Part shown: piece after piece, positions 1,725 through 32,309 of the stretch
Position numbering within the stretch: the stretch's first letter is position 1
Layout: every line of letters begins with the position of its first letter
Origin: a virus
Virus record (IMG/VR): IMGVR_UViG_3300020183_000288
Coordinates: 1 to 32,309 of that record
Strand: one strand, 5' to 3'
DNA: 32,309 nt
Notes under the pieces: generated by a model
The model's database searches: none
Told to the model about the DNA's origin: nothing
Seen by the model: only the letters and a program-made list of their open reading frames with translations
Translations under genes and position numbers: made by a program

Positions 1725-1737
1725 GTTATTTTTCGGG

Positions 1738-2562: not shown

Positions 2563-2578
2563 TTGTCTTTGTTGTTGG

Positions 2579-2695
2579 TTAATCCGCCTGCCGCCTCCGC
2601 GACCACTGCCCCACCCGCCCCAAGCCAGGTCGCCAGCCGTTGCGGACGGCCCGATCAATCTTGGCGACAATCTTGCGAAGCTGTTTGCGGGTCAT
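2579..2695 (-). CDS. Small basic 38-residue protein, unknown function
   Basis: A short reading frame starts at ATG 2695, overlapping the stop of the methyltransferase-like gene as ATGA, and ends 16 bases before the exonuclease start. The product (MTRKQLRKIVAKIDRAV at its start) is very basic and mostly helical in appearance; about a third of residues are Arg or Lys. Translational coupling and the otherwise unexplained gap support it as real. It could bind nucleic acid, but nothing in it identifies a family. Confidence 0.5.
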   Translation of the reverse strand: MTRKQLRKIVAKIDRAVRNGWRPGLGRVGQWSRRRQAD

Positions 2696-4876: not shown

Positions 4877-5215
4877 TCACGATTTGGGTTTGGCTGAGTC
4901 GCTGGCTTCGAGTCGCACCGGTTGTTCAGCTTGGGCGTTAAAATCGGCACTGACGAACACGCCGTTCACCTTCTTTCGCATGGTTTTGTAAGGGGTGTTG
5001 TCCATCAACCAACCGTCCTCGCCAAAAACAGACTTTGCTTGTGCCAGGTCGTAAACGTGGACAACGGGCAAGCCTTCGCAAAGCAGCGGGTGCGAGCAAA
5101 CTAGATCAAACGGAGTGCATTGCTCTTGAATGAAGCTAATGAGTTGTTCTTGAGCGCGGATCGTTGCGCGACAGTCAGCTAACGCTTTGGCAATGTTTTT
5201 TTGCGGTAAGTTCAT
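4877..5215 (-). CDS. Hypothetical early protein with PVVHVYD motif
   Basis: This 112-residue protein starts at ATG 5215, overlapping the stop of the HTH gene as ATGA. The N-terminal 40 residues look like one helix (ALADCRATIRAQEQLISFIQEQ); the centre has PVVHVYDLAQAKSVFG and the C-terminus is charged. The PVVHVYD heptapeptide also occurs in the 167-residue protein at 10498-11001, and the DNA encoding it is also similar. No family is recognised. Confidence 0.6.
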   Translation of the reverse strand: MNLPQKNIAKALADCRATIRAQEQLISFIQEQCTPFDLVCSHPLLCEGLPVVHVYDLAQAKSVFGEDGWLMDNTPYKTMRKKVNGVFVSADFNAQAEQPVRLEASDSAKPKS

Positions 5216-6704: not shown

Positions 6705-7267
6705 AGCTTGAAGAACAAATGACCGCCGACAACCGCCACAGGAGTTTTCCCCTTCGACCAATACGGCGAGACAGACTTGGTATGGTAGTGATTGGCCAGC
6801 CCAACCGTGGCGACGGCAGCGGGCTTGCTCGCCAGATCAAGTGCCGATTTCCAAGCCGTGCTTGTTTTTGCGCGAGCTACGAGCTGCTCCGGCGTTGTTT
6901 GATTTAGGCAACTAAACTGCTTTTTTGCCGTTACAACTTGCCACTCGGTCTGCCTTCTCTCCACGGCGCGAACCTGTACTACCTCACGCACAGCTCGCAT
7001 TCCCGCAACACCATCGCCAGCGGCCTCGGCCACCAGCACGGCGGCGACTAGCTCTTGACTCGTCGGCTGCGCGGCGTGCGCGTTGCACGCGACAGCGACA
7101 ATGCCAGCGGCGACCTTCAATGCCCGTCGCACCGTCAAGGCCTCCTCTAAGATTCGCGTTCGGGTTTTGCCAAGCCGATCTGATTCCTTGGCCAGCCAAT
7201 CGGCTAGGTCAGGCGGCAGCTTGAATGAGCAGAGACGTTTTAGTTTGCGGTGCTTGTTTAATTTCAC
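6701..7267 (-). CDS. Ribbon-helix-helix domain fused to SleB-like cell-wall hydrolase
   Basis: The 188-residue frame has two parts. Residues about 8-43 (RLCSFKLPPDLADWLAKES, then a helix to EEAL) look like a ribbon-helix-helix DNA-binding domain. A hydrophobic stretch (LKVAAGIVAVACNAHA, about 48-63) like a signal peptide follows, and then a SleB/hydrolase_2 domain: VLVAEAAGDGVAGMRAV with the catalytic Glu, VVTAKKQFSC, and ANHYHTKSVSPYW. SleB enzymes are lytic transglycosylases, so this may be the endolysin. GAGGAGG just before an internal TTG/GTG (about 7139-7133) could start a separate exported hydrolase. GTG 7267 is chosen because an earlier TTG at 7303 would run through the operator. Confidence 0.75.
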   Translation of the reverse strand: MKLNKHRKLKRLCSFKLPPDLADWLAKESDRLGKTRTRILEEALTVRRALKVAAGIVAVACNAHAAQPTSQELVAAVLVAEAAGDGVAGMRAVREVVQVRAVERRQTEWQVVTAKKQFSCLNQTTPEQLVARAKTSTAWKSALDLASKPAAVATVGLANHYHTKSVSPYWSKGKTPVAVVGGHLFFKL

Positions 7268-8084: not shown

Positions 8085-9203
8085 ATGACCACTCGGAAAG
8101 TAATGATTCGCGGCGAGGTTCGCTGGATGGTTCAGTTTTGCCACGGCAAAATTCGTCGTCGTTTCTTTTTCCGGTCAAAAGCCTTGGCGGATCTTAAACT
8201 TGGTCAACTTAGGCAAGACCGCGAAGCGTTTGGTCGGGGTTGGGTTGACTTGGAATCCAGCGAGCGGGTGATGCTGTGCGAGATTTTGACTGAGGCCAAG
8301 GCCAAGGGCGTGTCCCTGCGCGACGTATGGGCAGCTTACAAGGCTGGCAAGGTTGCAGGTGTCACCGGCAGCGTCAGCGTGACAACGGCCCTGCAGCAAC
8401 TTATCGCCGCCAAACGCGCTCGCAATTTGCGGGAAAACTACGTGGCGCACCTAGAGCGTACCGTCCGCCAGTTTGCGGTTGGCAAAATGGAAATGCGCGT
8501 TGACCAGTTCACCGTTGACGACCTGAGAGCATACGTCAGCGGAGTGGCAACTCCTGGCGGTCAAGCCACTAGGCGAGGTCGGTTGCTGGCCTTCTTTGGG
8601 TTTTGCCAAAGCCGCGATTGGCTGGTGGTCAATCCAATGCTAAAAATTGAGCGGCCCAAGATTGACCGCGAGCGGCCTGAGTTTTTGCCGGTTGAAACTT
8701 GCCGCAGGCTGTTAGATTGCTTTTGTCCTCGCTCGCTAGGTTGGCTGGCTCTGGCTTTGTTTGCTGGCATTCGCCCTCAGGAGGCCGCGCAAATAAACTG
8801 GCAACAAATCGACCTTGAAGGCGGAACGGTCAACCTAGACGCAGCCACACATAAGACCCGCAAGCCGCACACGGTCACGTTGACGCCGAGCGCAAAGGCG
8901 TGGCTCGGTCACGCAAGGAAACTAGGAGCAGAATTGCCAGTGGCAAAAACCTCTTTGCGCCGGGACATGAGGCAAGCCCGCGATGCTATGCAGTGGCGCA
9001 GTTGGTCGAAAGACGTGTTGCGGCACACGTTTTGCACTTATGGAGTAGCAAAGTTCGGGCAGGCTTGGACGGCAAGGGAGGCGGATCACAGCGAATCGGT
9101 CTTGCGTCGGCACTATGCCAACCAAGCCAGAGCCAGCGATGCCGAGGCGTTTTTTAGACTGCTGCCGCCACTAGCAAAAACGTCCCCCGATTTAACGCGA
9201 TAA
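8085..9203 (+). CDS. int: Tyrosine recombinase, phage integrase
   Basis: The 372-residue protein has a DNA-binding arm/core region (about 90-190) and a C-terminal catalytic domain. Visible catalytic residues are R230 in LFAGIRPQEA, K257 in ATHKTRK, R313 and H314 in VLRHTFCTY, H335 in ADHSES and the nucleophile Y344 in RRHYANQ. The usual first His of the HxLR box is Asp (D310), a variation seen in some integrases. It integrates and excises the genome at the tRNA-Val site lying 160 bases upstream. There is no Shine-Dalgarno site before ATG 8085. It ends 19 bases from the convergent late gene at 9222; no terminator hairpin is evident. Confidence 0.95.
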   Translation: MTTRKVMIRGEVRWMVQFCHGKIRRRFFFRSKALADLKLGQLRQDREAFGRGWVDLESSERVMLCEILTEAKAKGVSLRDVWAAYKAGKVAGVTGSVSVTTALQQLIAAKRARNLRENYVAHLERTVRQFAVGKMEMRVDQFTVDDLRAYVSGVATPGGQATRRGRLLAFFGFCQSRDWLVVNPMLKIERPKIDRERPEFLPVETCRRLLDCFCPRSLGWLALALFAGIRPQEAAQINWQQIDLEGGTVNLDAATHKTRKPHTVTLTPSAKAWLGHARKLGAELPVAKTSLRRDMRQARDAMQWRSWSKDVLRHTFCTYGVAKFGQAWTAREADHSESVLRRHYANQARASDAEAFFRLLPPLAKTSPDLTR

Positions 9204-12116: not shown

Positions 12117-13174
12117 TGGCCTAACACCTCATAAAAAGAATAAGTCGCGTTGTGGTTTGTGTAGGCAGTGGTGAACACATAGAATCCCATAAAAAGTTCC
12201 CAGCTTGAGGATGTATCTACAAAGCTTGATGCATTGTTGATCAACACAGCCGAGCCTCCTTGGACTTGATTGGTGTAACTGTTCCAATTCTGAAACAAAA
12301 CAGTATTCGGAGCCGTTACTATTTTGCCAACGGACGTTCCTGATCCTCCGCTGCCAGCCGCGCCGTTGGCTAAAAAATTAGTGTTGGAACCGACGTAAAA
12401 CACGTATTGCGGCCCTACCGAGTTGGCATTTGTGCGAATGGAGCTAACCGAGTAAACTACTGTGCTGCTTGTGCTTAACAATGGAGGCATCGTGACCTTA
12501 AATAATTTGGTGACGTTTTCATAGTCCCCGTTGTTAGTCTTGTCGCCAACCACAACGGCAATGGTGGGAATGTAAACATTGGTCGCAAACAACAGCCTTG
12601 TGCCAATTTTGTTTACCGTGAAAAATTTCGCTGCTTCAAATTGATTCGTCCCGTTCAGCAAGGCCAGATTGGTCAAAGCCACCGTCGGCTTGTTGTTTAG
12701 TTGCGTTTGCACGCTGCTGGTCGCGTCGAGGTAGCCAAGGGTTGTGTCTGTCACGGTTGAGTTTGTCAGGTTGCCGTTGGCATCAATTACAGGAACACGC
12801 GAAGCCGTGACTCCGGTAAATCGCATTGGGCCAGAGAACGTGTTGGTTCCGTTCAGCAAGGCCAGATTGGTCAAAGCCACCGTCGGCTTGTTGTTTAGTT
12901 GCGTTTGCACGCTGCTGGTCGCGTCGAGGTAGCCAAGGGTCGTGTCCGTCACGGTTGAGTTTGTCAGGTTGCCGTTGGCATCAATTACCGGAACACGCGA
13001 AGCCGTGACTCCGGTAAGTCGCATTGGGCCAGAGAACGTGTTGGTTCCGTTCAGCAAAGCGAGGTTCGTGACGCCGCCCGTGACCGTCCGGTTGGTCGTG
13101 GTTGACAGCATCGGGAAAGTTTGCGCGTAGCCGTTAATGGCCAGCAGCGCGGCTATGAGCAGCAATGGTTTCAT
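12113..13174 (-). CDS. Secreted or virion repeat protein with signal peptide
   Basis: The 353-residue protein starts with an apparent signal peptide (MKPLLLIAALLAINGYAQ) followed by repeats of 66 residues. TNLALLNGTN recurs at residues 36, 102 and 168; each full unit continues with TFSGPM, VTASRVPVIDANGNLT and YLDATSSVQTQLNNKP. The C-terminal 170 residues are Ser/Thr/Asn-rich beta sequence. Repeats with A-x-SSVQTQLN are typical of trimeric tail fibres, yet a cleavable signal is not expected for virion proteins. It follows the main fibre gene by 7 bases with an AACAAAACC leader. It may be an accessory fibre or an exported surface protein. Confidence 0.65.
   Translation of the reverse strand: MKPLLLIAALLAINGYAQTFPMLSTTTNRTVTGGVTNLALLNGTNTFSGPMRLTGVTASRVPVIDANGNLTNSTVTDTTLGYLDATSSVQTQLNNKPTVALTNLALLNGTNTFSGPMRFTGVTASRVPVIDANGNLTNSTVTDTTLGYLDATSSVQTQLNNKPTVALTNLALLNGTNQFEAAKFFTVNKIGTRLLFATNVYIPTIAVVVGDKTNNGDYENVTKLFKVTMPPLLSTSSTVVYSVSSIRTNANSVGPQYVFYVGSNTNFLANGAAGSGGSGTSVGKIVTAPNTVLFQNWNSYTNQVQGGSAVLINNASSFVDTSSSWELFMGFYVFTTAYTNHNATYSFYEVLGQ
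12644..13069 (-). repeat. 198-bp tandem repeat, two full units plus a partial
   Basis: The DNA for the 66-residue units is nearly identical between copies: two complete units (about 12872-13069 and 12674-12871) and the first 30 bases of a third. High DNA identity points to recent duplication or gene conversion. Confidence 0.85.
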
Positions 13175-13181
13175 GGTTTTG

Positions 13182-16145
13182 TTAGTTGGTGACTTCGGTG
13201 TAATCCAAGGTTAAGGCCCACGCGATGTTGGTTGCCGCCTCGCCGGTTACACGGGCGCGGACGGCTCCGTTGGTTGTGTCAGCGTCGAGGGTGAAGCCCC
13301 AATCAAAAGTGGGAATTGGGTTGATCTGCAATTCGTCGCCGGACGAGACGGTGATAGTGGCTGCGGACGCGCCACGCTCGGCTTTGCCGACAAAATGCAG
13401 GGCTTGGGTTTGTGCGGCTGAAGTTAAACCGGTGGGCACGGTGGTTTGGCCAGCAGTGTTGTCTCCCCACGCCACCACGTTGCCATCCGACTTCAAGGCC
13501 ACGGTGTGATTCCCACCTGCCGCGATGGCCACCACGCCGCTCAGGCCGGCGGGCACGGTGGTTTGGCCACTGCTGTTGCTTCCCCACGCCACCACGGTGC
13601 CATCCGACTTCAAGGCCACGGTGTGACCACCAGCCGCCGCGATGGCCTCCACGCCGCTCAGGCCGGCGGGCACGGTGGTTTGGCCACTGCCGTTGCTTCC
13701 CCACGCCACCACGGTGCCATCCGACTTCAAGGCCACGGTGTGATACACACCCGCCGCGATGGACTCCACGCCGCTCAGTCCAGCGGGCACGTTGGTTTGG
13801 CCTTGAGAGTTGGAACCCCACGCCACCACAGTGCCATCCGACTTCAAGGCCACGGTGTGTAAATCACCTGCCGCGATGGCCACCACGCCGCTCAGTCCGG
13901 CGGGCACGGTGGTTTGGCCAGAGAAGTTCAATCCCCACGCCACCACGGTGCCATCCGACTGCAAGGCCACGGTGTGAAACCCACCCGCCGCGATGGAATC
14001 CACGCCGCTCAGTCCAGCGGGCACGGTGGTTTGGCCTTCGTGGTTCCATCCCCACGCCACCACGGTGCCATCCGACTTCAAGGCCACGGTGTGATTCCCA
14101 CCCGCCGCGATGGCCACCACGCCGCTCAGGCCGGCGGGTACGGTGGTTTGGCCTTGTTCGTTGTGTCCCCACGCGACCACGGTGTCATCCGATTTCAAGG
14201 CCACGGTGTGAAAATCACCACCCGCAACTGCTGTCCAAGTCGCGCCTGCATTTCCTTCTTCAGCTCGCGCTACCAACCGGCCCGCAAACGTCCACGCGCT
14301 TTCGTTTGGCAAGGTCGCTCGCCCGCCCGCGCTGGTAAGCATTTCCGTTTGCGTTGCGTCGGCGGTGTTGGCAACCAGCCGAACGCTGCCGCCCCCGCCT
14401 GCGTCGACGTGTTCGTAGCCAGTCTCGTCGGCTTTCACGGCCAGCAATTTGCCGCCCGCGCCTGCTAAACTTAGCTCTGCCAGCGAGGTTAGTTCGGCGT
14501 CGAGCGGTTGCTTGGCGGCTAAATCACTGGTGAGGTTGGTGATTTGCGACTGGGCCAAGGTCAGCGGATCACTGCCGCCGCTGGCGTGCGAAGCAGCGTG
14601 CGCGGCGTGGTCGGCAGAACAACAAGTATTTGCAATGTAAATTTGACCTAAACCGTGTACCGCAATTAGTTTGTTTCCGCTGGAAGACGAGGCGATGTGA
14701 AACCAGTTGCGAATGCCCGCGCTTATCTGCTCCGTCCAAGTCGCTCCCGAATTTGTCGAAGTATAGATTGCGCCACCAAATAATGCAGCGCACAGTCTTG
14801 TTCCGTTTGCCGACGATGCAACTGTGACGCGAGAGCCAATCGGAATTTGATTTGGCACTCGCGCCGTCCAGGTTACCCCCGAATCTGTCGAAGTGTAAAT
14901 CTGGCCCAAAACTCCCTCGTCTTGTCCCGCAGTAGCCGCTATAAGCTTGGTTCCGTCAGCAGATGAGGCAACAGAAATCCATGGTCGATCAGCATCTGTT
15001 ATTCGTGCTGTCCAGGTCACGCCTGAATCCGTCGAAGTGTAAATCTTGCCGTCACCCACCACTGCCACAAGCCGTGAGCCGTCTGACGACGAGGCGACAC
15101 CTATCCAAAGCCGTGAGCTTTCTCTTTCCGTCCAAGTCACCCCCGAATCTGTCGAGGTGTAAATTTGGCCTGCATACACCACCGCGCAAAGCTTCGAGCC
15201 GTCCGCTGACGAAGCAACGTCACTCCACTGGCGGTTGCTTTCTCTCGCCGTCCACGTCACTCCCGAGTCTGTTGAGGTGTGGATTTGCTCCCCATAAGTC
15301 AATGCAACTATTTTTGAACCGTCCGAAGACGAAGCAATTTCCTTCCAAACGCGGTTTTGTTCTCGCGCTGTCCAAGTTACGCCCGAATCTGTCGAAGTGT
15401 AAATCTGGCCGTTTTCTACTGCGGCAACAAGTTTCGTGCCGTCAGACGAAGATGCAACCGCCACCCAGTTCCGGTTGCTGTCGCGGGCTGTCCACGATAA
15501 ATCAATTACCTCCCCATCGCCCGCTGCGTCAACGTGTTCGTAACCACTCTCGTCAGCTTTCACGGCCAGCAATTTGCCGCCCGCGCCTGTCAAACTTAGC
15601 TCTGCCAGCGAGGTAAGCTCTGCGTCGAGCGGCTGCTTGGTCGCCAATAGACCAAGAAGCAGGCTTTCGTCAACATCTTCGGGCAAGCTGGCTTCCGTGG
15701 TCAAAACCTCGTTGCTGATGGTAATTGGAGCTTGGAAAGTGAACTGCTCCTCGCCTGCGCCTTGGATTAACTCAACTTCAAAGGTCTGGCTGATTTCGTC
15801 GCCCGTGGCGGCATCAAGCGCAGCCACCATTTGCTCGGTGAAGATGTTAAGGACTCCTTCAAAACAGTAGTCGTCGTTATTCCAAGTCAGCGATTGCGCG
15901 GCCAAAATATCCCCACCGGGATCGCCAATGCCGACGCGACAAGAGTAGCCTTCTAGCTCCTCAATCTCCGCTGGCGATCCCAACCCGCCGTTAGGCGTGG
16001 GCGAGAGGAAGAAAATTCTTAGCGACAACTTCGATTCCCTAAACCCCTTCGGCAGTTGGTAGGACGATAGGTTTTTCTCTGACTGAACGAAAGCCCCGGT
16101 CTGATTGGAGGGGCGAAGATTAATGTAAAGGTCGCGTGAGGCCAT
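13182..16145 (-). CDS. Large tail fibre with Asp-box and RCC1-type propellers
   Basis: The 987-residue protein has an N-terminal domain (1-160) likely to attach to the tail, a linker KQPLDAELTSLAELSL (170-185), a region of seven sialidase-like units (about 213-505) with six STDSGVTWT-type Asp-boxes, and ADHAAHAASHASGGSDPLT (511-529), typical of phage fibres. A second copy of the linker (545-560), seven RCC1-like units of 39 residues (VVAWG, GQTTVPAGLSGV, HTVALKSDGT; about 645-903), and a C-terminal beta domain follow. Both repeat sets could form seven-bladed propellers. It is most likely the receptor-binding protein. The leader before ATG 16145 is A/T-rich with no Shine-Dalgarno site. Confidence 0.8.
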   Translation of the reverse strand: MASRDLYINLRPSNQTGAFVQSEKNLSSYQLPKGFRESKLSLRIFFLSPTPNGGLGSPAEIEELEGYSCRVGIGDPGGDILAAQSLTWNNDDYCFEGVLNIFTEQMVAALDAATGDEISQTFEVELIQGAGEEQFTFQAPITISNEVLTTEASLPEDVDESLLLGLLATKQPLDAELTSLAELSLTGAGGKLLAVKADESGYEHVDAAGDGEVIDLSWTARDSNRNWVAVASSSDGTKLVAAVENGQIYTSTDSGVTWTAREQNRVWKEIASSSDGSKIVALTYGEQIHTSTDSGVTWTARESNRQWSDVASSADGSKLCAVVYAGQIYTSTDSGVTWTERESSRLWIGVASSSDGSRLVAVVGDGKIYTSTDSGVTWTARITDADRPWISVASSADGTKLIAATAGQDEGVLGQIYTSTDSGVTWTARVPNQIPIGSRVTVASSANGTRLCAALFGGAIYTSTNSGATWTEQISAGIRNWFHIASSSSGNKLIAVHGLGQIYIANTCCSADHAAHAASHASGGSDPLTLAQSQITNLTSDLAAKQPLDAELTSLAELSLAGAGGKLLAVKADETGYEHVDAGGGGSVRLVANTADATQTEMLTSAGGRATLPNESAWTFAGRLVARAEEGNAGATWTAVAGGDFHTVALKSDDTVVAWGHNEQGQTTVPAGLSGVVAIAAGGNHTVALKSDGTVVAWGWNHEGQTTVPAGLSGVDSIAAGGFHTVALQSDGTVVAWGLNFSGQTTVPAGLSGVVAIAAGDLHTVALKSDGTVVAWGSNSQGQTNVPAGLSGVESIAAGVYHTVALKSDGTVVAWGSNGSGQTTVPAGLSGVEAIAAAGGHTVALKSDGTVVAWGSNSSGQTTVPAGLSGVVAIAAGGNHTVALKSDGNVVAWGDNTAGQTTVPTGLTSAAQTQALHFVGKAERGASAATITVSSGDELQINPIPTFDWGFTLDADTTNGAVRARVTGEAATNIAWALTLDYTEVTN
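13431..14219 (-). repeat. Seven 117-bp tandem units encoding RCC1-like repeats
   Basis: The sequence cacggtggtttggcc (or one-base variants) recurs at 13437, 13554, 13671, 13788, 13905, 14022 and 14139, exactly 117 bases apart. Units are highly similar; differences cluster at the codons after VVAWG and after IAAG. Both strands carry long false reading frames here because the repeat length is a multiple of three. Confidence 0.95.
14400..14519 (-). repeat. Duplicated 120-bp linker, second copy
   Basis: This segment encodes the 40-residue linker with LAELSLAGAGGKLLAVKADE and GYEHVDA. It is a near-copy of 15525-15644. The two copies flank the Asp-box propeller in the fibre. Confidence 0.9.
14631..15509 (-). 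repeat. Seven Asp-box units (about 120 bp each)
   Basis: Units of roughly 39-48 residues carry W..VASSSDG.KL.A, GQIYTSTDSGVTWTAR and similar. There are seven VASSxDG segments but six Asp-boxes; the first unit starts with DLSWTAR and the last ends with GQIYIA, as expected for a circularly closed seven-bladed propeller. DNA identity is lower than in the RCC1 array, so it appears older. Confidence 0.85.
15525..15644 (-). repeat. Duplicated 120-bp linker, first copy
   Basis: First copy of the linker that recurs at 14400-14519, encoding KQPLDAELTSLAELSL and the following GGKLLAVKADESGYEHVDA. Confidence 0.9.
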
Positions 16146-20573: not shown

Positions 20574-21311
20574 CTATTTAGTTGAGGTTTTGGGCGGGAT
20601 AAATTTGTTGGCCGTCTTTTGCAGCTTGTCAGCGATGTATTTTTGCATCGCTTGAGTTTCAGCATGAAAAGCCTTTCGCAACCCTTCCGTTGCCAGTTCT
20701 TGACCCTTTGCCCGTGCCTTTGAATCGTTCCAACGCACGCCGAGCGTGGCGTTGTTTTCGATTAGCGCAAAAGGGTTAGGCCCAGGCTTGGCCGGGGTAC
20801 ATTGGCCAAGGTTAGCTGATCGACTAACCACGTCGGCGGGTCGTTGATAAGCCTCGCCCACCAGCGACGAAAGCTTTTTAATAGACACAATCCAGCCTGA
20901 CCGCAGAAATCCAATGGAACGCAGTTTGGCGGCAATCCATTTGCGAGCAGCCTTGGCGATTGCTTTGCGGTTTTCAAACGATTGGCCAGAGCTGCGTCCT
21001 GCTTTTGACCGCGCTCCGAGGTATTTTCCAATCGCCTCGTTCTCCGCAAAATCGAATTTGCGCTTAACCTTCTTCTTTTTGGTTTTCTCAGACGTGTATT
21101 CTTTGACGCTCGCGGTTCTCAAGCCAAGATCCTCAATCGCAGAGCGTTCGGCTTTCTTTGTATTTGCCAAGGCTCCGTGAGCGATTCTTAAAGCCTTTCT
21201 GTTGAGAATCTCTGCCTCATCCCTAGAACTCAACTTTACATATTCTTTCAACGCACGATCAAACTCTCGCGTGTCAAAAGTGATGCCTGTGGGTTGATTT
21301 CCCGACGCCAT
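20574..21311 (-). CDS. gpZ/HK97-gp10-like tail connector protein
   Basis: The 245-residue protein opens GITFDTREFDRALKEYVKLS and EILNRKALRIAHGALANTKKA, the pattern of gpZ or gp10-like neck and tail-completion proteins. A basic stretch (KTKKKKVKRK, about 76-85) precedes FAENEAIGKYLGARSKAG, the start of a 34-residue segment (about 88-121) that is nearly identical to the C-terminus of the plus-strand gene at 27467. The C-terminal part (KAFHAETQAMQKYIADKL) is helical. It probably joins tail to head. A promoter-like sequence lies in the 72-base gap upstream. Confidence 0.65.
   Translation of the reverse strand: MASGNQPTGITFDTREFDRALKEYVKLSSRDEAEILNRKALRIAHGALANTKKAERSAIEDLGLRTASVKEYTSEKTKKKKVKRKFDFAENEAIGKYLGARSKAGRSSGQSFENRKAIAKAARKWIAAKLRSIGFLRSGWIVSIKKLSSLVGEAYQRPADVVSRSANLGQCTPAKPGPNPFALIENNATLGVRWNDSKARAKGQELATEGLRKAFHAETQAMQKYIADKLQKTANKFIPPKTSTK
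20950..21050 (-). repeat. 101-nt segment shared with the plus-strand cassette
   Basis: Read on the minus strand, this segment aligns without gaps with 27665-27765 on the plus strand; by eye, 96 of 101 bases match. Both copies are read in the same protein frame. Confidence 0.9.
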
Positions 21312-21383: not shown

Positions 21384-22091
21384 CTAGCAAGCCTGCCCCT
21401 TGTCAAAGCGAAATCTTACAAATCTGCCGTGCCGGTACTTTCCGGCAGCGGTCAACTGCATGGCTTTAACCTCAATCCATGCGCCGATGCTGGCGGCGGC
21501 TTGGCGAATTTCCACCTCGCCAAAGCCAAAGATTCGGCCAGCGGGAATCTTGCGCCCCTTGACCATGCGCGACACGGCGACGGTCTGCGCGTCCTCGTCC
21601 ACGCTGTCAAGTATCACATCCTCGGTGATTTCGCGCTTGAACCGCAGCCAGTCGTTCGGCTGGTGATAGGTTGAGCGCAAGTCTTTGGCGACTACTCCCT
21701 CGCTCGGTTCTTTGATCGCGTCAGGCGAGGAATAATGCGGAACAATCGCTATTTCGTGCGGCAAATTAAGCGTGGCAAGCTTCGCCAGTCGAGCCGCCAA
21801 AGGTTGCCCGCTCACGTCCTCGCCGTTGAGTTCTAGCAGGTCAAAAGCGCGAAAAGTGTCGCCCACCTTCTCACAGTCAAGCACGGCAGACGTTTCAGAT
21901 TCCAAGCTGATTGGCTTGGACTGCATCGCTCGCCCGTGCCAGGTGCAACCGGAGGGAGACAAGCGAAGCACGGCTCGCTCGCCGTCAATCTTCTCTTGCC
22001 AGATAAAATTTGGGCCAAGGGCAACCGCCGCGCCAGATGCTTGCTCGTAAGCGAAACACCCGGCGAAACCTTTGGGCTCGTAACTCGTCAC
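21384..22091 (-). CDS. Minimal ATP-dependent DNA ligase
   Basis: The 235-residue protein carries the nucleotidyltransferase motifs in order: EKIDGER (motif I, Lys34 as the adenylated residue), TFRAFDLLELNG (motif III, about 79-90), SEGVVAK (motif IV, 130-136), WLRFKRE (motif V, 148-154), then a short OB-like domain ending GRFVRFRFDKGQ (motif VI). It should seal nicks in DNA using ATP, or be an RNA ligase of similar design. It is shorter than Chlorella virus ligase (298 residues). GTG 22091 has AAGG about 6 bases upstream. Finding it among head-tail connector genes instead of the early region is unusual. Confidence 0.85.
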   Translation of the reverse strand: MTSYEPKGFAGCFAYEQASGAAVALGPNFIWQEKIDGERAVLRLSPSGCTWHGRAMQSKPISLESETSAVLDCEKVGDTFRAFDLLELNGEDVSGQPLAARLAKLATLNLPHEIAIVPHYSSPDAIKEPSEGVVAKDLRSTYHQPNDWLRFKREITEDVILDSVDEDAQTVAVSRMVKGRKIPAGRIFGFGEVEIRQAAASIGAWIEVKAMQLTAAGKYRHGRFVRFRFDKGQAC

Positions 22092-26535: not shown

Positions 26536-26784
26536 TCAGCGCGAGTTGAAATTGCAAACGGCGCGGGTGACGTGTGCGCCGTAGGTGTCGGGATCAATTT
26601 TTCGCAGGGCATACCGGCACTCCTCCAAAACCTCTTTTACTGGCATGGCAAATTGCTTGCCCGTCGCGGTGTTGCCGCTGCTCCAGGTCATCAAGGTCTT
26701 GCCTTCCGTCACCAAAGCTCGCGCCTGAGTGCGGATTTCCAAAACCTGCGCTGCCGTAAAGTCGGCAAAAATTCCAGAGGCCAC
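26536..26784 (-). CDS. gpW-like head-tail joining protein candidate
   Basis: The 82-residue protein (GTG start 26784) has helix TAAQVLEIRTQARALVTEG, a hairpin region (TLMTWSSGNTATGKQFAMP) and helix VKEVLEECRYALRKI. This helix-hairpin-helix design, small size and position before the portal match lambda gpW, which joins head to tail. A promoter-like TTGCAA with TATGGT 17 bases later lies just upstream of the start and implies a very short leader. In lambda, W directly follows the large terminase; here the plus-strand cassette separates them. Confidence 0.6.
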   Translation of the reverse strand: MASGIFADFTAAQVLEIRTQARALVTEGKTLMTWSSGNTATGKQFAMPVKEVLEECRYALRKIDPDTYGAHVTRAVCNFNSR

Positions 26785-26794
26785 GGGTTGACCA

Positions 26795-26817
26795 TATATT
26801 AGCCGAACTTATTTTGC
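26795..26817 (-). promoter_or_regulatory. Candidate promoter restarting the late operon
   Basis: On the minus strand, TTGCAA (about 26812-26817) is followed, 17 bases later, by TATGGT (about 26789-26794), 4 bases before GTG 26784. This could supply transcription of the structural genes past the opposing cassette. The -10 match is moderate. Confidence 0.35.
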
Positions 26818-26868
26818 AAGCCCTTTGGATTAGCTGCGCTTTAATCGTAAAAAAAGGCGATTTACCTG

Positions 26869-26896
26869 TTGCAACGCAAGCGGCTTGCGCTATTGT
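26869..26896 (+). promoter_or_regulatory. Cassette promoter with operator between -35 and -10
   Basis: TTGCAA (26869-26874) and TATTGT (26891-26896) are 16 bases apart. The spacer holds a perfect inverted repeat CGCAAGC-G-GCTTGCG (26875-26889). The first cassette ATG lies 6 bases after the -10, so its message would be leaderless or almost so. A repressor bound to the repeat would block the promoter. Confidence 0.45.
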
Positions 26897-26902
26897 TTAG
26901 CC

Positions 26903-27109
26903 ATGAAAACGAACAACGCAACGCTGGATTCACTGATTAACTGGGTTCGCTACGAAATGGCGAACGAAACGCCCCGCACGGAAATCGTCAAGATGGTGGC
27001 TGAAAGCCTCAAGAAATCCATCGGCGAGAAAATGCCGGAAGATATGTCAATTCGGCTCGCCGAATACGGCATCACCCAAGCGGAAAAAGAAATCTGCCAA
27101 CTCCAATGA
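26903..27109 (+). CDS. Cassette gene 1: 68-residue hypothetical protein
   Basis: The protein starts MKTNNATLDSLINWVRYEMA and continues with helices (REIVKMVAESLKKSIG-like and RLAEYGITQAEKEIC). It is the first gene of a plus-strand run opposite to the late genes. It has no Shine-Dalgarno site and probably a very short leader. Its stop overlaps the next start as ATGA. No family is recognised; a small helical regulator or host-interaction protein is possible. Confidence 0.6.
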   Translation: MKTNNATLDSLINWVRYEMANETPRTEIVKMVAESLKKSIGEKMPEDMSIRLAEYGITQAEKEICQLQ

Positions 27110-27432
27110 GTGACACTGCGAAGCAATACCTCGCCGCAATCGAGCGGCGGGGCAGATGCCCGCAAAAACAACAAACCAAAAACATGAACACACACACACA
27201 CACACCCGGCCCTTTGCGCAAAATCACCCAGCAGGATGCGGAACTCATAGCCATTGCTTCCCGGCTTCGCCAGTTTTCGTGTGGTAAGTACGACACTAAA
27301 ACTGGCTTCTCCGAGGTCATCTACCACACAATGAATGGCGATTTGCTCGTCGTCATCGAGAAGTTCGGGGCTGAACCTCGGGTATCGTTGGCTCTTGCAG
27401 CCCTTGCCAAGGCGAAAGGAGGCGCGAAGTGA
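27106..27432 (+). CDS. Cassette gene 2: HTHTPGP-containing small protein
   Basis: The full frame is 108 residues. Its first 26 residues (SDTAKQYLAAIERRG) resemble the start of cassette gene 5 (VKQYLAFIGARGG). An internal ATG at 27184 begins MNTHTHTPGPLRK after the leader aaaacaacaaaccaaaaac; phage small proteins often begin HTPGPW, and the same cgcaaaaacaa leader precedes gene 3, so this may be the true start. A CA dinucleotide run lies at 27187-27205. The C-terminus AKAKGGAK is encoded by the shared coupling junction with AAAGGAGG. Confidence 0.6.
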   Translation: MSDTAKQYLAAIERRGRCPQKQQTKNMNTHTHTPGPLRKITQQDAELIAIASRLRQFSCGKYDTKTGFSEVIYHTMNGDLLVVIEKFGAEPRVSLALAALAKAKGGAK

Positions 27433-27433
27433 A
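27391..27433 (+). repeat. Shared coupling junction, copy 1
   Basis: CTTGCAGCCCTTGCCAAGG, then cgaaaggaggcgcgaagtgaa, encodes the LAALAKAKGGAK end and holds AAAGGAGG just before an overlapping GTGA. Copy 4 (28201-28240) differs at three of 40 bases. Here the GTG opens only a nine-codon frame before the stop at 27454. Confidence 0.8.
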
Positions 27434-27466
27434 CCCGCAAAAACAAGAACTACACTAAAACAAAAA

Positions 27467-27784
27467 ATGAAATATCGCCTGATTGACCCCTATTTCCGCT
27501 TGTTTAACGTCACCGTTGAGAACACGCCGCGAGGAATGCGAGATGCCGTCGCACTCGTGTTGGAAAACATGGACATGAACGAAGACCCCACATACCACGT
27601 ACGCCACGGGTCGCTGGTGGTAACGGCAGCCCACCTGCGAATGATTGCGGCGCGTCTAGATAAATTTGCGGAGGACGAGGCAATTGGAAAATACCTCGGA
27701 GCGCGGTCAAAAGCAGGATTCAGCTCTGGTCAATCGTTTGAAAACCGCAAAGCAATCGCCAAGGCGAAAGGAGTCGCGAAGTGA
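27467..27784 (+). CDS. Cassette gene 3: protein ending in a captured gpZ-like segment
   Basis: The 105-residue protein has an N-terminal part of its own (KYRLIDPYFRLFNVTVEN to AHLRMIAARLD) and a C-terminal third (EAIGKYLGARSKAG, SSGQSFENRKAIAKA) that is 32 of 34 residues identical to residues about 88-121 of the minus-strand gpZ-like protein, and at DNA level 96 of 101 bases. It ends KGVAK with the cassette junction. The first part shows no known family. The leader is actaaaacaaaaa. Its stop overlaps gene 4 as GTGA. Confidence 0.7.
   Translation: MKYRLIDPYFRLFNVTVENTPRGMRDAVALVLENMDMNEDPTYHVRHGSLVVTAAHLRMIAARLDKFAEDEAIGKYLGARSKAGFSSGQSFENRKAIAKAKGVAK
27665..27765 (+). repeat. 101-nt segment copied from (or to) the gpZ-like gene
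   Basis: Plus-strand copy of the segment at 20950-21050 (minus strand), in the same reading frame. Five mismatches were counted by eye. Confidence 0.9.
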
Positions 27785-27786
27785 AT
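27755..27786 (+). repeat. Shared coupling junction, copy 2
   Basis: ATCGCCAAGGCGAAAGGAG followed by tcgcgaagtgaattcct ends gene 3 and starts gene 4 at GTG 27781. It differs from copy 1 mainly by GGAGT for GGAGG. Confidence 0.8.
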
Positions 27787-28239
27787 TCCTCAAACGAAAC
27801 GGCTGGGGCAAAAACAATGGTGCGCTTAAATAAGGCGGAACACGCCGCCCTTGTCGCGGTGGCTAAATCGGCTGATGAAATGCACTCGGCCCGCATCATC
27901 AGCAGTTTATGGGATCAAGACGTGGCGTCAGTAAAAATGAGAAAAGCACTTAGAGCTCTCTTCAAAGTTCGCTTGTCCTGGCCTTGGCCTTGCCCGTCCC
28001 GGCCTTGCCGCCACGCGAGGCGCGAAGTGAATTCCTTAAACACAAACGAAACGGCTGGGGCAGAAACAATGGTGTGCTTAAACAAGGCGGAACACGCCGC
28101 CCTTGTCGCGGTGGCTAAATCGGCTGTTGAATTGATCAGCGCACGCTCAATGGGCGGTTTTGTGGATGTAGACGTGGCGGCAGTAAAAATGAAAAAAGCA
28201 CTTGCAGCCCTTACCAAGTCGAAAGGAGGCGCAAAGTGA
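27781..28239 (+). CDS. Cassette gene 4: internally duplicated protein, fused by read-through
   Basis: The 152-residue frame has two copies of one unit: NETAGAKTMVRLNKAEHAAL..(1) and NETAGAETMVCLNKAEHAAL..(2), each continuing VAVAKSA and a VDVAAVKMKKAL-like end. The join between them (about residues 61-82) is FKVRLSWPWPCPSRPCRHAR, out of character with both. That DNA (27967-28015) is an inverted near-copy of part of gene 5. The second unit has its own GTG at 28027 in the same frame and could be made separately. Originally there were probably two genes, each with a stop. No family is recognised. Confidence 0.6.
   Translation: MNSSNETAGAKTMVRLNKAEHAALVAVAKSADEMHSARIISSLWDQDVASVKMRKALRALFKVRLSWPWPCPSRPCRHARREVNSLNTNETAGAETMVCLNKAEHAALVAVAKSAVELISARSMGGFVDVDVAAVKMKKALAALTKSKGGAK
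27967..28015 (-). repeat. Inverted near-copy of part of cassette gene 5
   Basis: Read on the minus strand, this 49-base segment matches 28278-28326 on the plus strand with three mismatches (by eye). It forms the odd linker in gene 4. Confidence 0.85.
28010..28036 (+). repeat. Shared coupling junction, copy 3 (damaged)
   Basis: Only gcgaggcgcgaagtgaattcctt remains. The AAAGGAG part is replaced by the inverted segment, and the TGA is out of frame with the upstream unit, so gene 4 reads through. Confidence 0.7.
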
Positions 28240-28244
28240 ATTCG
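28201..28244 (+). repeat. Shared coupling junction, copy 4
   Basis: CTTGCAGCCCTTACCAAGTC, then gaaaggaggcgcaaagtgaattcg, ends gene 4 (LAALTKSKGGAK) and starts gene 5 at GTG 28236 with a strong AAAGGAGG. Confidence 0.8.
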
Positions 28245-28415
28245 CTGGTTAAACAATATCTTGCGTTCATCGGCGCACGTGGCGGCAAGGCTGGGACAGG
28301 CAAGGCCAAGGCGAGGACAAGCGAACAAGCTCGCAAGGCCGCGCTCGCGGGCGTGGCCAAGCGGCGGGCTAAGGCGCAGGCTTTAGCTCATAATCCTTCG
28401 CCGCCGTCGGAATGA
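28236..28415 (+). CDS. Cassette gene 5: small basic Ala/Lys/Arg-rich protein
   Basis: The 59-residue protein starts VNSLVKQYLAFIGARGGKAG, then has KARTSEQARKAALAGVAKRR, a pattern seen in very small basic phage proteins (RTSEQARKAA.. repeats) presumed to bind nucleic acid. The strong AAAGGAGG of the junction precedes GTG 28236. Its last 47 bases overlap, on the opposite strand, the end of the terminase large subunit gene. No terminator follows, so convergent transcription into the terminase gene is likely. Confidence 0.6.
   Translation: MNSLVKQYLAFIGARGGKAGTGKAKARTSEQARKAALAGVAKRRAKAQALAHNPSPPSE
28278..28326 (+). repeat. Source or partner of the inverted segment
   Basis: Plus-strand partner of 27967-28015, inside gene 5, encoding RGGKAGTGKAKARTSEQ. 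Confidence 0.85.
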
Positions 28416-30210
28416 CCGCGCCCCGGCTGAACGCGCTGGCGTCCATCGCCACCAGTGCCATCAGCAAACAGTCGCCGTAGTGATTGTTGCCCGAGTCGCG
28501 CCAACGCCAGACGGTGTTCCCTCGCGACCCCTTCTCAGGTTCGCGCCGTTCGTCTTGGATCTCTGCTATAAAGTCGCTGCCCACGTCGGCGGGCAGTTCA
28601 AACAACGGCCCTTTGCCTTTGAGTGCGAACAGGTAAAGCCGCCCCTTGTAGCTTTCGTTTGACCACTCAATTCTGGTCACGCCTTTTGTGGCTGCGCCCT
28701 TTGTGCCGATAAACGGATCAACCGAACTTACCCGAAACGGGCGGTGGACGATTCGTTTGCTTGCGTTCTTGTGAGCAAAACCGTCCTGTGCGCTGCCGCG
28801 CATAGCCAGCCAGTTCCAACGCACGCACTCGCGGAGAATTTCGGTCTGCCGGTTGCCGTCGGCAGAGTCGATGAACACGCCGCGATTGGCGACTCCTTTG
28901 GCCGTTTGCAAGGCGCGAAGGTCGTCGAAGTGTGAAAGCTGCCCGTAGTCCACAACGCGAAGCTCGCCGCCCTCGCGCAGTTGGCAGAGGGTGAACCGCA
29001 AGTGATCCTTTTGCACGTCCACGGTGACAATGCGTGTGGCCCGTCGCTGGTCGTTTGCTGGCCAAAATTCGCCGCGATTGTATTTGCCACAGAGTCTGCG
29101 GATTTCGTTCTCGTCCGCCACGTCGCCAATGAGCAGCCACGGTTCACCGAGGGTTTCGCGCACGAAGCTCTTAAGCGGTTCCATCTCGCCGGATTCGGCG
29201 CGTTCTTTCGCGGCTAAAAACTCACACGCCACGTCGTCCCAGCGAACCCAGATTGAGCTTAAGGCATTCCAGAAAAACGATTGCACGTTTGGCTCTGGCG
29301 TCGGGTTGCGATCATAACGCTCCAGGGTTTGCAGCAGCTTGAATTGCTCGCTCTGGTAAATGTTTGCTTCGCACGACTCGCACTGATAACGCACGGTTTT
29401 TCTAAGCTCGGCCCAGTTCCAACGCCCGCTCGGGCGCGTGGTGTCGTTAGTGTCCCACACCAGCCCGCCCTTGTCTCTGGCTTCGGGAAAAACCACCGAC
29501 TTCTCGCGGCCAAAGCGAAACGGCTGGCGGTGTCCACAGTGCGGGCAAGCCCAGTGAAAAAATGTCTGCGTGCCTTGTTCCCACTGCGCATGAACGGTTT
29601 CGCCTGCGTTCATCGGCGTCGAGATCACAACGGTCTTTGAGTGGCTGTATGAGCGAACGCGCTTGCCGACCTTCTCAAAGCTAGACGGAGGCCAGTCGCT
29701 AACTTCGTCGCAAACCAGCCAGCGCACGGGCGTTGACTTAAGTTTCGAGGGCGAGTTTGCCCCGCGAAAATAAACTGGCATGGACGTGAACCGGACGAGG
29801 TTAAGCGTCTTGCCTGAGCGTTCGGCGGGCATCCTTGAAACGACCTCTGGTATTCTTTCCAATAGCGGCATCAACCGCGCTTTTGTGAATTCGTCGCAAG
29901 CCTCCTCGCTCGCCATTACCCAAAACATCGGGCCAGGTGCTTCGCAGATTGCCCAAGCCGCGAAGACCATGAGCGTTTGCGTTTTGCCTGCCTGAGCCGA
30001 TACCATCAAGACGACTTTGCGCGTGCGGCGGTCTTGCAACGCATCAAAAACGGGTCGCACCATTGGCGAAACGTCGGTGCGGTATGGCCCCTCGATTTGC
30101 GAGAGGCCGGTCAAATCAATTTTGGCCTCGGCCCACTGCCACAGCGACAGTTCAGAAGGCGGGGTCAACCAGTCCGCCATCATGCCGTCTAATTTTTCGA
30201 GGCCGGTCAT
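28369..30210 (-). CDS. Terminase large subunit (gpA type)
   Basis: The 613-residue protein has the gpA layout: N-terminal LSLWQWAEAKIDLTG, an ATPase domain with Walker A-like VSAQAGKTQT (about 69-78), MFWVMASEEA and VRWLVCDEVSDWPPSSFEKVG with the Walker B acidic pair. A zinc-ribbon-like pair, CPHCGHRQP and CESCEAN, follows, and then a nuclease domain starting RIVTVDVQKDH with a catalytic Asp, with IDSADGNRQT later. It cuts concatemers and drives packaging. ATGA overlap couples it to the small subunit. Its 3' end overlaps the plus-strand cassette by 47 bases. Confidence 0.95.
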   Translation of the reverse strand: MTGLEKLDGMMADWLTPPSELSLWQWAEAKIDLTGLSQIEGPYRTDVSPMVRPVFDALQDRRTRKVVLMVSAQAGKTQTLMVFAAWAICEAPGPMFWVMASEEACDEFTKARLMPLLERIPEVVSRMPAERSGKTLNLVRFTSMPVYFRGANSPSKLKSTPVRWLVCDEVSDWPPSSFEKVGKRVRSYSHSKTVVISTPMNAGETVHAQWEQGTQTFFHWACPHCGHRQPFRFGREKSVVFPEARDKGGLVWDTNDTTRPSGRWNWAELRKTVRYQCESCEANIYQSEQFKLLQTLERYDRNPTPEPNVQSFFWNALSSIWVRWDDVACEFLAAKERAESGEMEPLKSFVRETLGEPWLLIGDVADENEIRRLCGKYNRGEFWPANDQRRATRIVTVDVQKDHLRFTLCQLREGGELRVVDYGQLSHFDDLRALQTAKGVANRGVFIDSADGNRQTEILRECVRWNWLAMRGSAQDGFAHKNASKRIVHRPFRVSSVDPFIGTKGAATKGVTRIEWSNESYKGRLYLFALKGKGPLFELPADVGSDFIAEIQDERREPEKGSRGNTVWRWRDSGNNHYGDCLLMALVAMDASAFSRGAVIPTAAKDYELKPAP

Positions 30211-30818
30211 TTCGGCTTGGGAACGTGGGGCATACGGGAAATCTCTTTGAGCATTGCCCGCAGCCCGTCGTTGACCCGCCCCGCTACGAAGTCGCCCGGC
30301 TGGTTGTGGCAGATGGACGCCAGCCCGTCGCCAAAGTTGGAAAGCCTCGCGGTGAAGGCAGTCAGCACCGAGCCCATCGTTGCCGAGAGGGTGTCCACGT
30401 CAATCAGCTTGCCCTCCTTTTCGTCAGCTTCCATTTCGGCCAGCCGTGCTTTGGCTTCGCGTTCGCGGAGCTTGGCGGCGTCGAGCGTGCCAGCCTTTAC
30501 CTTGCGAGCGGCAGCTTCGCGGTAGTATTTGACCAAACCGGCAAAGGTCGCTCGCAAATCATAGATGCCGTTATCCGGTGGCGGGAAATATCCCTGCTTG
30601 GCAAGCTGCCGGTGGCGTTTGTCCGTCAACCCGGTGAGGTTGCAAAGCTCCTCCCCGCTGATTTTCTGTGCGCCCTCGGCGGTGGCGTCCGCCTTGGCCC
30701 GCAGCAACACTTCGCGCTCGGCGTTGGAGATGGTTTCACCCGCCGCAACTCGCCGCTGGATGTTTACCAGGTCGCGCTTAAGGACGCGATCAATCAAGGC
30801 ATGGTCTTGAGGTTCCAT
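30207..30818 (-). CDS. Terminase small subunit (Nu1 type)
   Basis: The 203-residue protein has SGEELCNLTGLTDKRHRQLAKQGYFPPPDNGIYDL-like sequence (split here as ISGEELCNLTGLTDKRHRQL and GYFPPPDNGIYDLRATF), the winged-helix start of Nu1-type terminase proteins that recognise the cos site. A coiled coil follows (AAKLREREAKARLAEMEADE). The C-terminal half contacts the large subunit. Its Nu1-like nature suggests a cos-type (cohesive-end) packaging, though the cos site itself was not located. Confidence 0.85.
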   Translation of the reverse strand: MEPQDHALIDRVLKRDLVNIQRRVAAGETISNAEREVLLRAKADATAEGAQKISGEELCNLTGLTDKRHRQLAKQGYFPPPDNGIYDLRATFAGLVKYYREAAARKVKAGTLDAAKLREREAKARLAEMEADEKEGKLIDVDTLSATMGSVLTAFTARLSNFGDGLASICHNQPGDFVAGRVNDGLRAMLKEISRMPHVPKPK

Positions 30819-30821
30819 GTG

Positions 30822-31613
30822 TTAAGGGGACTGGAGCGCGGGGGTCGGTAGTGAGCCGCCCTTTGCAAGCTGGACGCCTGCCGTGTCCAAAGTATCACTT
30901 CCCGCGCGTGACCTTGCCTTTCCCTTATACATTCCCGCGCCGAGCCTGTCAATTTCACTAAACGGCAAGACCGGGACGGTGAGCCGTTCGCGCGCGGTTG
31001 GGTCTAGGAAATAGATGTAGCGGAGTTGGAAGCCGGGAACGAACTTTGCCCCCACGTCAAGAAAGGGCTTCAATGAACACTCTCCACCGATTTTCGCGCC
31101 GTATTTTTTGGCCAGCTCAACACGACGTGGCCGTCGGGCGTCCGTCAAGACAAGCCGGGTTTCTCGCAGACCATCGGGGAACTCAACGATTTGGTCCGAC
31201 TCTTTTATTCCAGAAAGGACAAAGCCACTGGCCCGGTAAATAGTCCCGTCGCCGCACTGCGTCCCGTCCGCAAAAGAAATCACCCACTGCATCCACGGGT
31301 ATGTTTTTTTGAGCCAACGCATCGCAAACCCTATGGCGCGGCTTTCACCGTTGCGCGGCAACCAGTCGGCAAACGCCATGCGGTTCAGTTCAATAAACTC
31401 GTTCCATTTCGTCCCTCTCACAAGCCCTTGAATCTTCCGTTTGTCCAAGCTCGGGCCGAATTGCATCGCGCCGCCGCACTTGCCATCTAGGAACACCCCA
31501 AGGTGAACTTGGGAGTTTTGCACGACTTTCCCGCTGTAATGGAGCGATTTCACGACGCGCGAAGCGTCCGCCGCCGAGATGGGCTTCACCTCAATTCGTT
31601 TCGCGTCACCCAC
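30822..31613 (-). CDS. Mom-like DNA modification acyltransferase
   Basis: The 263-residue protein has SLHYSGKVVQNSQVHLGVF, MQFGPSLDKRKI, EFIELNRMAFADWLPRN, then WVISFADGTQCGDGTIYRASGF, the central pattern of phage Mu Mom-family GNAT-fold enzymes. Mu Mom changes adenine in DNA to a carbamoylmethyl derivative and so blocks many restriction enzymes. GTG 31613 overlaps the ParB-like stop (GTGGGTGA) and has AAAGG seven bases before; a longer frame to 31736 is rejected because it only adds a Ser/Thr/Arg shadow of the upstream gene. The basic C-terminal 60 residues are extra. Confidence 0.8.
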   Translation of the reverse strand: MGDAKRIEVKPISAADASRVVKSLHYSGKVVQNSQVHLGVFLDGKCGGAMQFGPSLDKRKIQGLVRGTKWNEFIELNRMAFADWLPRNGESRAIGFAMRWLKKTYPWMQWVISFADGTQCGDGTIYRASGFVLSGIKESDQIVEFPDGLRETRLVLTDARRPRRVELAKKYGAKIGGECSLKPFLDVGAKFVPGFQLRYIYFLDPTARERLTVPVLPFSEIDRLGAGMYKGKARSRAGSDTLDTAGVQLAKGGSLPTPALQSP

Positions 31614-32244
31614 GGTTGAACCTTTCGCAGATGTGCGCCAGCGCGTTGCCGTTGCTGTTTTCGTTGACCGCAGACTCGCCGCCGCCGTCCTGCTTGGCCT
31701 TTCGCAGCGCGGCTTCAATTTCTTCAAACTGCTCATCGTGAACCGTGAAGGTCATTTGCCGGAACGGAGCGCGGTCTCCGCTGGCAAGCTCAGGCGGCTT
31801 TACCTCTTCCGCATCAAAGACACCCACGGACGCCATGCCCTCGGCGTCAAAACCAACAGCCTCCAGGTCAATCTTGTCGGCAATCTCGCCCAGCAAGGCG
31901 GAAAGCTCTTTGTCGTCCGTTTCGGCCAACTCCGCGATCCGGTTGTCCGCGATGAGGTCGGCCCATTCGTCCGCTTCCGTCGCGTAGTCCTGCCGGTCAA
32001 TCGGCACTTGCTCGACTTGCAAGAGCTTCGCGGCTTCAAGCCTCCCGTGGCCCTTCACCACGAAGCCCGAACGGTTGGAGATCACGACGGGCGAACGCCA
32101 GCCCTGATGCCGGATGATTTTCGCCAGCAGCGCAATCTGTTTGTCGGGATGCTTGTTCGGATTTCGCGGGTTGGGGATAAGTCCCACAACGTCAGCGAGT
32201 TCGGTGTGGCTGCAATGCACGGGGATTGTGGAGGCAGTTGTCAT
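31606..32244 (-). CDS. ParB/Sulfiredoxin-like domain protein
   Basis: The 212-residue protein has the ParB N-terminal pattern: LIPNPRNPNKHPDKQIALLAKIIRHQG (shown as LIPNPRNPNKHPDKQ and ALLAKIIRHQG), WRSPVVIS, GHGRLEAAKLL and VDRQDY-like, ADNRIAELAETDDKELSALL. Phage members carry this domain next to methyltransferases or terminases; nuclease, CTP-binding or DNA-binding roles are known in the family. The C-terminal 60 residues are charged. ATG 32244 is preferred; GTG 32289 gives a longer form. The leader before 32244 is tccttttTccaaaact-like, without a Shine-Dalgarno site. Confidence 0.8.
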   Translation of the reverse strand: MTTASTIPVHCSHTELADVVGLIPNPRNPNKHPDKQIALLAKIIRHQGWRSPVVISNRSGFVVKGHGRLEAAKLLQVEQVPIDRQDYATEADEWADLIADNRIAELAETDDKELSALLGEIADKIDLEAVGFDAEGMASVGVFDAEEVKPPELASGDRAPFRQMTFTVHDEQFEEIEAALRKAKQDGGGESAVNENSNGNALAHICERFNRG

Positions 32245-32297
32245 AGTTTTGGAAAAAGGAAGCGGGTTTTTGAGGGTTGTTAGGGCCACATTCGGCG

Positions 32298-32309
32298 CAC
32301 ATCGTTACC
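32298..32309. repeat. Terminal direct repeat, right copy (circular join)
   Basis: The last 12 bases equal the first 12 (cacatcgttacc). See the left copy. Confidence 0.6.

Follow-up and report, generated by a model that had tools for sequence, protein, structure and literature searches.

Morons and other variable cargo sites of tailed phages consist of optional small genes that lie between structural genes, run against the operon and differ between close relatives. The locus described here resembles them in holding optional, variable small genes, but differs in that its cassette genes are chimeras in their own right.

Exchange at short boundary sequences is already an established proposal for lambdoid phages (Susskind and Botstein 1978; Clark et al. 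2001, on HK620; both as cited in PMC3029335 and PMC2327257). As presented in these citing papers, boundary sequences are short conserved flanks of exchanged modules, for which homologous exchange of non-homologous genes was proposed, and in this respect the present locus is similar. In contrast to boundary sequences so presented, the conserved piece at this locus combines a coding 3' end, that of one gene family, with a coupling signal, and one foreign gene is traced to its parents, with inverted template pieces. The SAS/ESAS of cluster K mycobacteriophages include a 13-bp motif that is spread across the non-structural half of the genome and has a proposed role in translation initiation (PMC3203893). 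They, too, place a Shine-Dalgarno (SD)-containing repeat at the starts of unrelated small genes, sometimes with an upstream stop codon (PMC3203893), whereas the repeat described here is longer, coding and restricted to one cassette; the SAS 13-bp motif that precedes starts, GGGATAGGAGCCC, was not matched, the junction sequence being different. PeSL cassettes of T4-like phages (Arbiol 2010; Comeau 2014; as cited in PMC4503421) are, in that account, promoter and terminator elements that form short regulatory repeats between small genes and were proposed to mediate shuffling, as suggested here; the repeat in our cassette, in contrast, is a translational coupler, with no promoter or terminator evident. 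Finally, Red and RecA need approximately 30 bp of homology (PMC2327257), and Rad52-like phage recombinases tolerate divergence (PMC3945230). The phage analyzed here has in common with such relaxed recombination a RecT-like and a RecE-like protein and joints at short or diverged homology, but its exact joints, of 6-11 nt, are below the reported minimum of about 30 bp (PMC2327257).

How phages come by their many unexplained small genes, and put them together, has long been asked; usually, the joints are unreadable. Here we describe a cassette that is a clear footprint of small-gene assembly, a principle already proposed for other phages, and in which one new gene is resolved to its parents, one of them an otherwise unrelated phage. 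The reading that we prefer, with a probability of about 0.68, is that of a moron-like cargo site in which shared coupling gene ends, namely, the repeated 3' end of a PHROG 1273 gene, serve as joining patches. What appears to be new, besides the captured gene with traceable parents, is that the coding 3' end of one family acts as boundary and coupler at once.

The phage and its cassette

The window, that is, the whole stretch of DNA that was analyzed, is a 32.3-kb virus record and comes from a freshwater virus of bacteria. The structural genes, including those for the small and large terminase subunits, a gene in the gpW position, the portal and an S49 protease, are on the minus strand, and a tyrosine integrase gene (8085-9203, +) suggests a temperate lifestyle. 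Alignment of the terminase large subunit (TerL) with bacterial genomes produced no relative that would point to a host. The features relevant for the following analysis are listed below.

801-1751 (-): RecT-like single-strand annealing protein (PHROG 561, 1.7e-77)
1738-2670 (-): exonuclease VIII/RecE-like nuclease (PHROG 412, 1.2e-78; Pfam DUF3799/PDDEXK)
26536-26784 (-): small gpW-position gene on one flank of the cassette, a neighbor kept in all relatives reaching that far
26785-26902 (+): region upstream of the cassette genes, possibly with a promoter, with an imperfect inverted repeat CGCAAGCGGCTTGCG at 26875-26889
26903-27109 (+): gene 1, 68 aa, the same in relative L008, a different gene in relative L009
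27106-27432 (+): gene 2, 108 aa, with the PHROG 1273 family ends (HTPGP start, AALAKAKGGAK end) around an unrelated body
27391-27433 (+): junction copy 1, last codons, AAAGGAGG and GTGA
27429-27458 (+): 9-codon mini-ORF VNPQKQELH opened by the GTG of junction 1, as read from the sequence
27467-27784 (+): gene 3, 105 aa, three-part chimera
27758-27785 (+): junction copy 2, 27/28 nt identical to copy 1
27781-28239 (+): gene 4, 152 aa, two tandem copies, 4a and 4b, fused in a single open frame
27967-28015 (+): inverted copy of part of gene 5, which overwrote junction 3
28017-28041 (+): what remains of junction copy 3, not in frame and lacking an SD
28198-28240 (+): junction copy 4, 39/43 nt identical to copy 1
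28236-28415 (+): gene 5, 59 aa, basic, the constant right-hand gene
28369-30210 (-): TerL (gpA-like) on the other flank (Pfam GpA_ATPase, 2.1e-45)

Thus placed between the gpW-position gene, which has no family match, and TerL, the five small plus-strand ORFs are as described in an earlier note on this DNA. The final 47 bp of gene 5 overlap the 3' end of TerL. None of the cassette proteins matched a Pfam or NCBIfam family above the cut-off. A further search, in E. coli, gave no match. The same note likened the cassette to a moron with its own promoter. The likeness holds insofar as the cassette is optional, variable and directed against the late operon. As to a promoter, the upstream region is conserved between L008 and L009 (see below), but a consensus promoter scan yielded one weak site, no more than in shuffled sequences. 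Palindromes like that of the upstream region are not above chance elsewhere in the window.

Several other genes of this phage deserve mention. The terminase genes are adjoined by a gene for a Mom-like DNA modification protein (30822-31736, -; Pfam Mom, 1e-50; PHROG 1384). Tail-region genes contain internal tandem repeats, with a unit of about 117 bp present 6.8 times at 13429-14219 and a 198-bp unit present 2.1 times at 12651-13057. Among the tail-region genes there is also a partial ATP-dependent DNA ligase-like gene (21384-22091, -; PHROG 114, 1.9e-15), with the match covering only the C-terminal half of the profile. A phosphoadenosine phosphosulfate reductase-like gene (5856-6761, -; PHROG 424, 3.4e-31) is of the auxiliary metabolic type.

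Occupancy of the site in related phages

The comparison covered 22 TerL relatives, among them, as close relatives, L008 (98% TerL identity to the window) and L009 (91%). The gap between TerL and the gpW-position gene is 1585 bp long in the window, 829 bp in L008, 1151 bp in L009, 239-548 bp in a further group, where it holds other content, and 41-85 bp in the rest, where it contains almost nothing. With a gap that varies from 41 to 1585 bp among relatives, the insertion is optional, as at moron or cargo sites.

L008 carries the same gene 1 and leader as the window (450 bp, 99.8%), followed by a full HTPGPW gene in place of gene 2, the junction and, directly, gene 5. L009 carries a different gene 1, an HTPGPW gene with a differing middle part, the same junction and a gene 5 with another gene fused into it. 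Between L008 and L009, the first 131 bp of the gap are 92% identical, even though the following gene 1 differs; the leader with the first half of the HTPGPW gene (189 bp, 94%), the junction (40 bp, 100%) and gene 5 (192 bp, 94%) are also shared, with non-homologous DNA in between. The junctions thus form islands, of 28/28 nt between copy 1 and L008 as well as between copy 1 and L009, and of 40/40 nt between L008 and L009, that are flanked by non-homologous DNA on both sides, in a backbone that is 92-96% identical. A search of relatives, as the earlier note had suggested, accordingly found different small genes next to a retained junction, the outcome that the note had counted as support, and as with boundary sequences, the same short sequence lies beside different genes at one locus; this junction-bounded variation comes from only three close genomes.

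All these sequences are metagenome contigs and the cassette pieces come from different strands and phages, so that separate phage populations might have been joined artificially by assembly or binning. Such an artefact has a negligible probability in our estimate: the independently assembled contig L007, which ends within the cassette, is 100% identical to the window over 1229 bp of the rearranged region, and the reading frames stay open across the joints. Furthermore, the copied pieces differ by 5-10% from their sources and are therefore not assembly duplicates.

More distant relatives show other arrangements. In a 76% clade, other plus-strand genes occupy the site, with N- and C-modules combined differently in L014, L015 and L027, where the last gene in the gap ends within the 3' end of the terminase gene. 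The 482-bp gap of L016 and L017 contains no clear plus-strand gene and is possibly non-coding.

The junction and its relation to the PHROG 1273 family

Genes 2, 3 and 4 encode proteins with the common C-terminal peptide reported earlier (ALAKAKGGAK, AIAKAKGVAK and ALTKSKGGAK, respectively). As the 3' end of a PHROG 1273 gene (see below), the junction encodes the end of the last helix of that protein and, in the same stretch, carries an SD and an overlapping stop/start (GTGA). The 27-mer GCCAAGGCGAAAGGAGGCGCGAAGTGA occurs three times, at 27406, 27758 and 28213 (0, 1 and 3 mismatches), and nowhere else in the window, with 0 copies expected from 100 shuffles. When all 820 pairings of gene 3' ends in the window are ranked, those within genes 2, 3 and 4 take the first three places, with 33, 28 and 25 of 37 positions identical, compared to 19 for the next best pair and a mean of 9.8 (sd 2.9). 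Copies 1 and 4 are alike at 39 of 43 positions, in agreement with the 3 differences in 40 bases counted previously, an identity that a control with the same peptide and random codons reached with P = 1e-4.

The earlier claim that each junction couples its gene to the next one requires revision. Copies 2 and 4 do so directly, into genes 4 and 5, but copies 1 and 3 do not. The GTG of copy 1 at 27429 opens the mini-ORF, which stops at 27458, and gene 3 begins with the ATG at 27467, about 35 nt past the stop codon of gene 2. The copy placed at 28010 is not a functional junction: its AAAGGAGG was lost to the inverted gene 5 piece and its TGA is out of frame. The view that all these gene ends are copies of one DNA junction holds in part as well, given that copy 2 shares the sequence from GCCAAGGC onward with copy 1, but its 5' part (AIAKA) derives from a tail gene.

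The shared ends could also have arisen by convergence, if AAAGGAGG, a spacer and an overlapping stop/start always give K-G-G-x-K, with no DNA exchanged. The core of AAAGGAGG, spacer and GTGA or ATGA together with KGGAK does end unrelated chromosomal genes: the same 19-24 nt terminate acyl-CoA dehydrogenase-like, xanthine dehydrogenase subunit-like and other genes in unrelated genomes (named by reading of the sequences), and in phage L033 five small genes end in EGGAK, EGGEK, EGDKK, EGGAK and KGGAK. Therefore, the shared peptide alone means little, and the core AAAGGAGG...GTGA with KGGAK also arises independently wherever genes are coupled in this manner. In L033, however, the likeness stops at the core, whereas in our junctions the DNA identity reaches 20-25 nt upstream of the SD, across synonymous sites (36/36 between L008 and L009, besides the codon control for copies 1 and 4), and a joint of gene 3 is traced to two parents (see below). 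Convergence is thus contradicted for copies 1 and 4 and for the relatives, with copy 2 diagnostic in its downstream half only, and we regard it as decidedly unlikely for the cassette. The synonymous-site identity upstream, together with the islands in relatives, indicates a common DNA origin of the junctions. In L033, an unrelated phage, the region 460-1735 contains six copies of an 18-nt SD/stop/start element that end consecutive small genes.

The source of the junction becomes apparent from the relatives. The HTPGPW genes of L008 and L009 belong to PHROG 1273 over nearly their whole length (1.6e-10 and 2.4e-11, respectively). This widespread family starts with HTPGPW, and sampled members end in RAAIAKAKG, often with a stop/start overlap. 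The overlap is present in 41 of 57 members of a sample that is biased because AAIAKAKG was among the scan seeds; in a sample drawn without seeds from genomes of the phylum to which a Verrucomicrobiaceae MAG belongs, it is present in 7 of 10 distinct genes, few of which have the exact AKAKG end. The family profile matches gene 2 at the N-end and C-end only and genes 3 and 4 at the C-end only, the bodies being unmatched. The profile thus identifies the junction as the 3' end of the HTPGPW family, an ordinary gene end that is widespread among phages and no dedicated plug-in element. In the structure that AlphaFold predicts for the L008 protein (mean pLDDT 76), the junction residues lie at the terminus of the last helix and in the coil that trails it. 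A tblastn search with this protein against phage records gave weak partial matches at most.

A dedicated element, such as an integron-like attC, the site of a site-specific recombinase or a diversity-generating retroelement, would superficially account for short repeats between small genes on one strand, and the phage has a tyrosine integrase. Such an element is highly improbable: the junction belongs to the coding sequence of a family that occurs in phages without this site, it folds no better than shuffled sequences (z of 0.60, -1.10 and 0.18, with RNA parameters), no inverted-repeat core was seen, and there is no reverse transcriptase among the scanned proteins. A hairpin or attC-like junction was rejected on this folding result.

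Another possibility is descent without exchange, with genes 2 and 4 being decayed tandem paralogues of one HTPGPW gene. Gene 2 indeed retains both family ends, 4a and 4b are a plain duplication, AEHAALVAVAKSA of gene 4 resembles the middle (NEHAALVAVAEAA) of an HTPGPW-like gene in phage L034, and tandem HTPGPW genes occur in L063 and L128. However, genes 2 and 4 have bodies that score unconvincingly against the family profile (E = 0.43 for 4b without its end), and the body of gene 3 comes from another phage. Moreover, drift cannot produce the middle part of the L008 and L009 genes, which is non-homologous between ends that are 94-100% identical. We consider descent alone unlikely and return to the cargo site with shared gene ends as joining patches.

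Assembly of genes 3 and 4 and possible joining mechanisms

Gene 3 gives the most readable record of such joining. Its third part is the junction; the other two are as follows.

27466-27678 (+): part A, copy of a small gene of phage L140, 89.7% over 213 bp, with homology from the start codon
27665-27765 (+): part B, inverted copy of a tail-region gene of the phage itself, 95% over 101 bp to 20950-21050 (-)
20950-21050 (-): source of part B, inside the tail-region gene 20574-21311

The L140 parent gene is intact, encodes 83 aa and is located between helicase-like and nuclease-like genes (by reading of the translations). L140 is an otherwise unrelated phage, in whose record the remainder of 26765-32309 finds no comparable match; tblastn with the L140 gene found no match in phage records. 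Part B is also 95% identical to the L009 tail gene. The first joint, between A and B, is located in a diverged shared stretch, TTTGCG..GACGA, and the second in the 11 nt ATCGCCAAGGC that are common to the tail gene and the L008-type junction, so that only one of the two joints is within the junction. By sequence similarity, then, the parents of gene 3 are the L140 gene and the phage's own tail gene, with the junction as the third part.

Gene 4 is a duplication (27771-27959 versus 28017-28211, 83% over 195 bp). The two halves are separated by 27967-28015, an inverted copy (94%) of 28278-28326 in gene 5; this 49-nt piece matches the L008 allele of gene 5 at 49/49 positions and the gene 5 of the window itself at 46/49. 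Because the TGA of junction 3 is out of frame, 27781-28239 forms one fused ORF. With 17% divergence, 4a and 4b are older than the split between the window and L008, hence at least part of the array either arrived pre-built or has disappeared from L008. For gene 4b, viral contigs contain no relatives outside the clade of the window. The DNA of gene 5 is about 92-96% identical to that of L008 and L009, and tblastn with gene 5 against phage records gave no match.

Taken as a whole, the small genes of the cassette appear to have been repeatedly rebuilt from pieces. Annealing or template switching at short matches may have linked incoming or misplaced DNA to the cassette, and the RecT/RecE-like pair and the replication machinery probably took part. 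Joints within the junction would be favored, either by homology or by selection, because a gene joined there would automatically have an in-frame end and would supply the gene after it with a ribosome-binding site and a start, so that the joint would survive. The duplication of gene 4 could result from exchange between two junction copies. The requirement of Red and RecA for about 30 bp corresponds approximately to the length of the junction, which counts in favor of the joining-patch reading. The exactly readable joints, though, comprise 6-11 nt of exact match, and because this is below the 30-bp minimum, they are compatible with template switching or illegitimate joining no less than with homologous exchange. 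A simple exchange between junction copies in direct orientation would not be expected to yield inverted pieces, and other breakpoints are outside the junction, within the HTPGP codons and inside gene 5. Together, the inverted pieces and the 6-11 nt matches point to template switching or single-strand annealing, not to classical homologous exchange alone.

The proposal of the earlier note, that repeated junctions let genes be swapped by homologous recombination while staying translationally coupled, therefore has to be amended. The islands in relatives and the gene 3 joint inside the junction are in line with a modular exchange site, but a dedicated site is not, and several rearrangements had their breaks at other places or involved inverted copies. 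There is no proof of a general plug-in system.

A broader version, in which the HTPGPW 3' end is a phage-wide adapter and the family a hub at which small genes originate and are exchanged in many unrelated phages, is conceivable but doubtful. The idea is that foreign coding sequence joined to this end, which is conserved in its DNA and brings the signals to translate the following gene, would at once become a closed, translationally coupled gene; if true, this would account for the immediate expression of captured coding pieces as part of an operon. The junction, defined to 28-43 nt, provides a testable unit. Tandem HTPGPW genes of L063, evaluated as an independent recurrence, were rejected as plain paralogues. 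In the unrelated phage L034, a 45-nt direct repeat (98%; 4016-4060 and 5017-5061) is located at two gene 3' ends, one of an HTPGPW-like gene and one of an unrelated gene, an event that resembles the one in the window and speaks for the preferred reading, with generality not established. The L140 phage, in turn, encodes two HTPGPW-family genes, one of which is the C-half of an HTPGPW gene fused to a foreign N-part.
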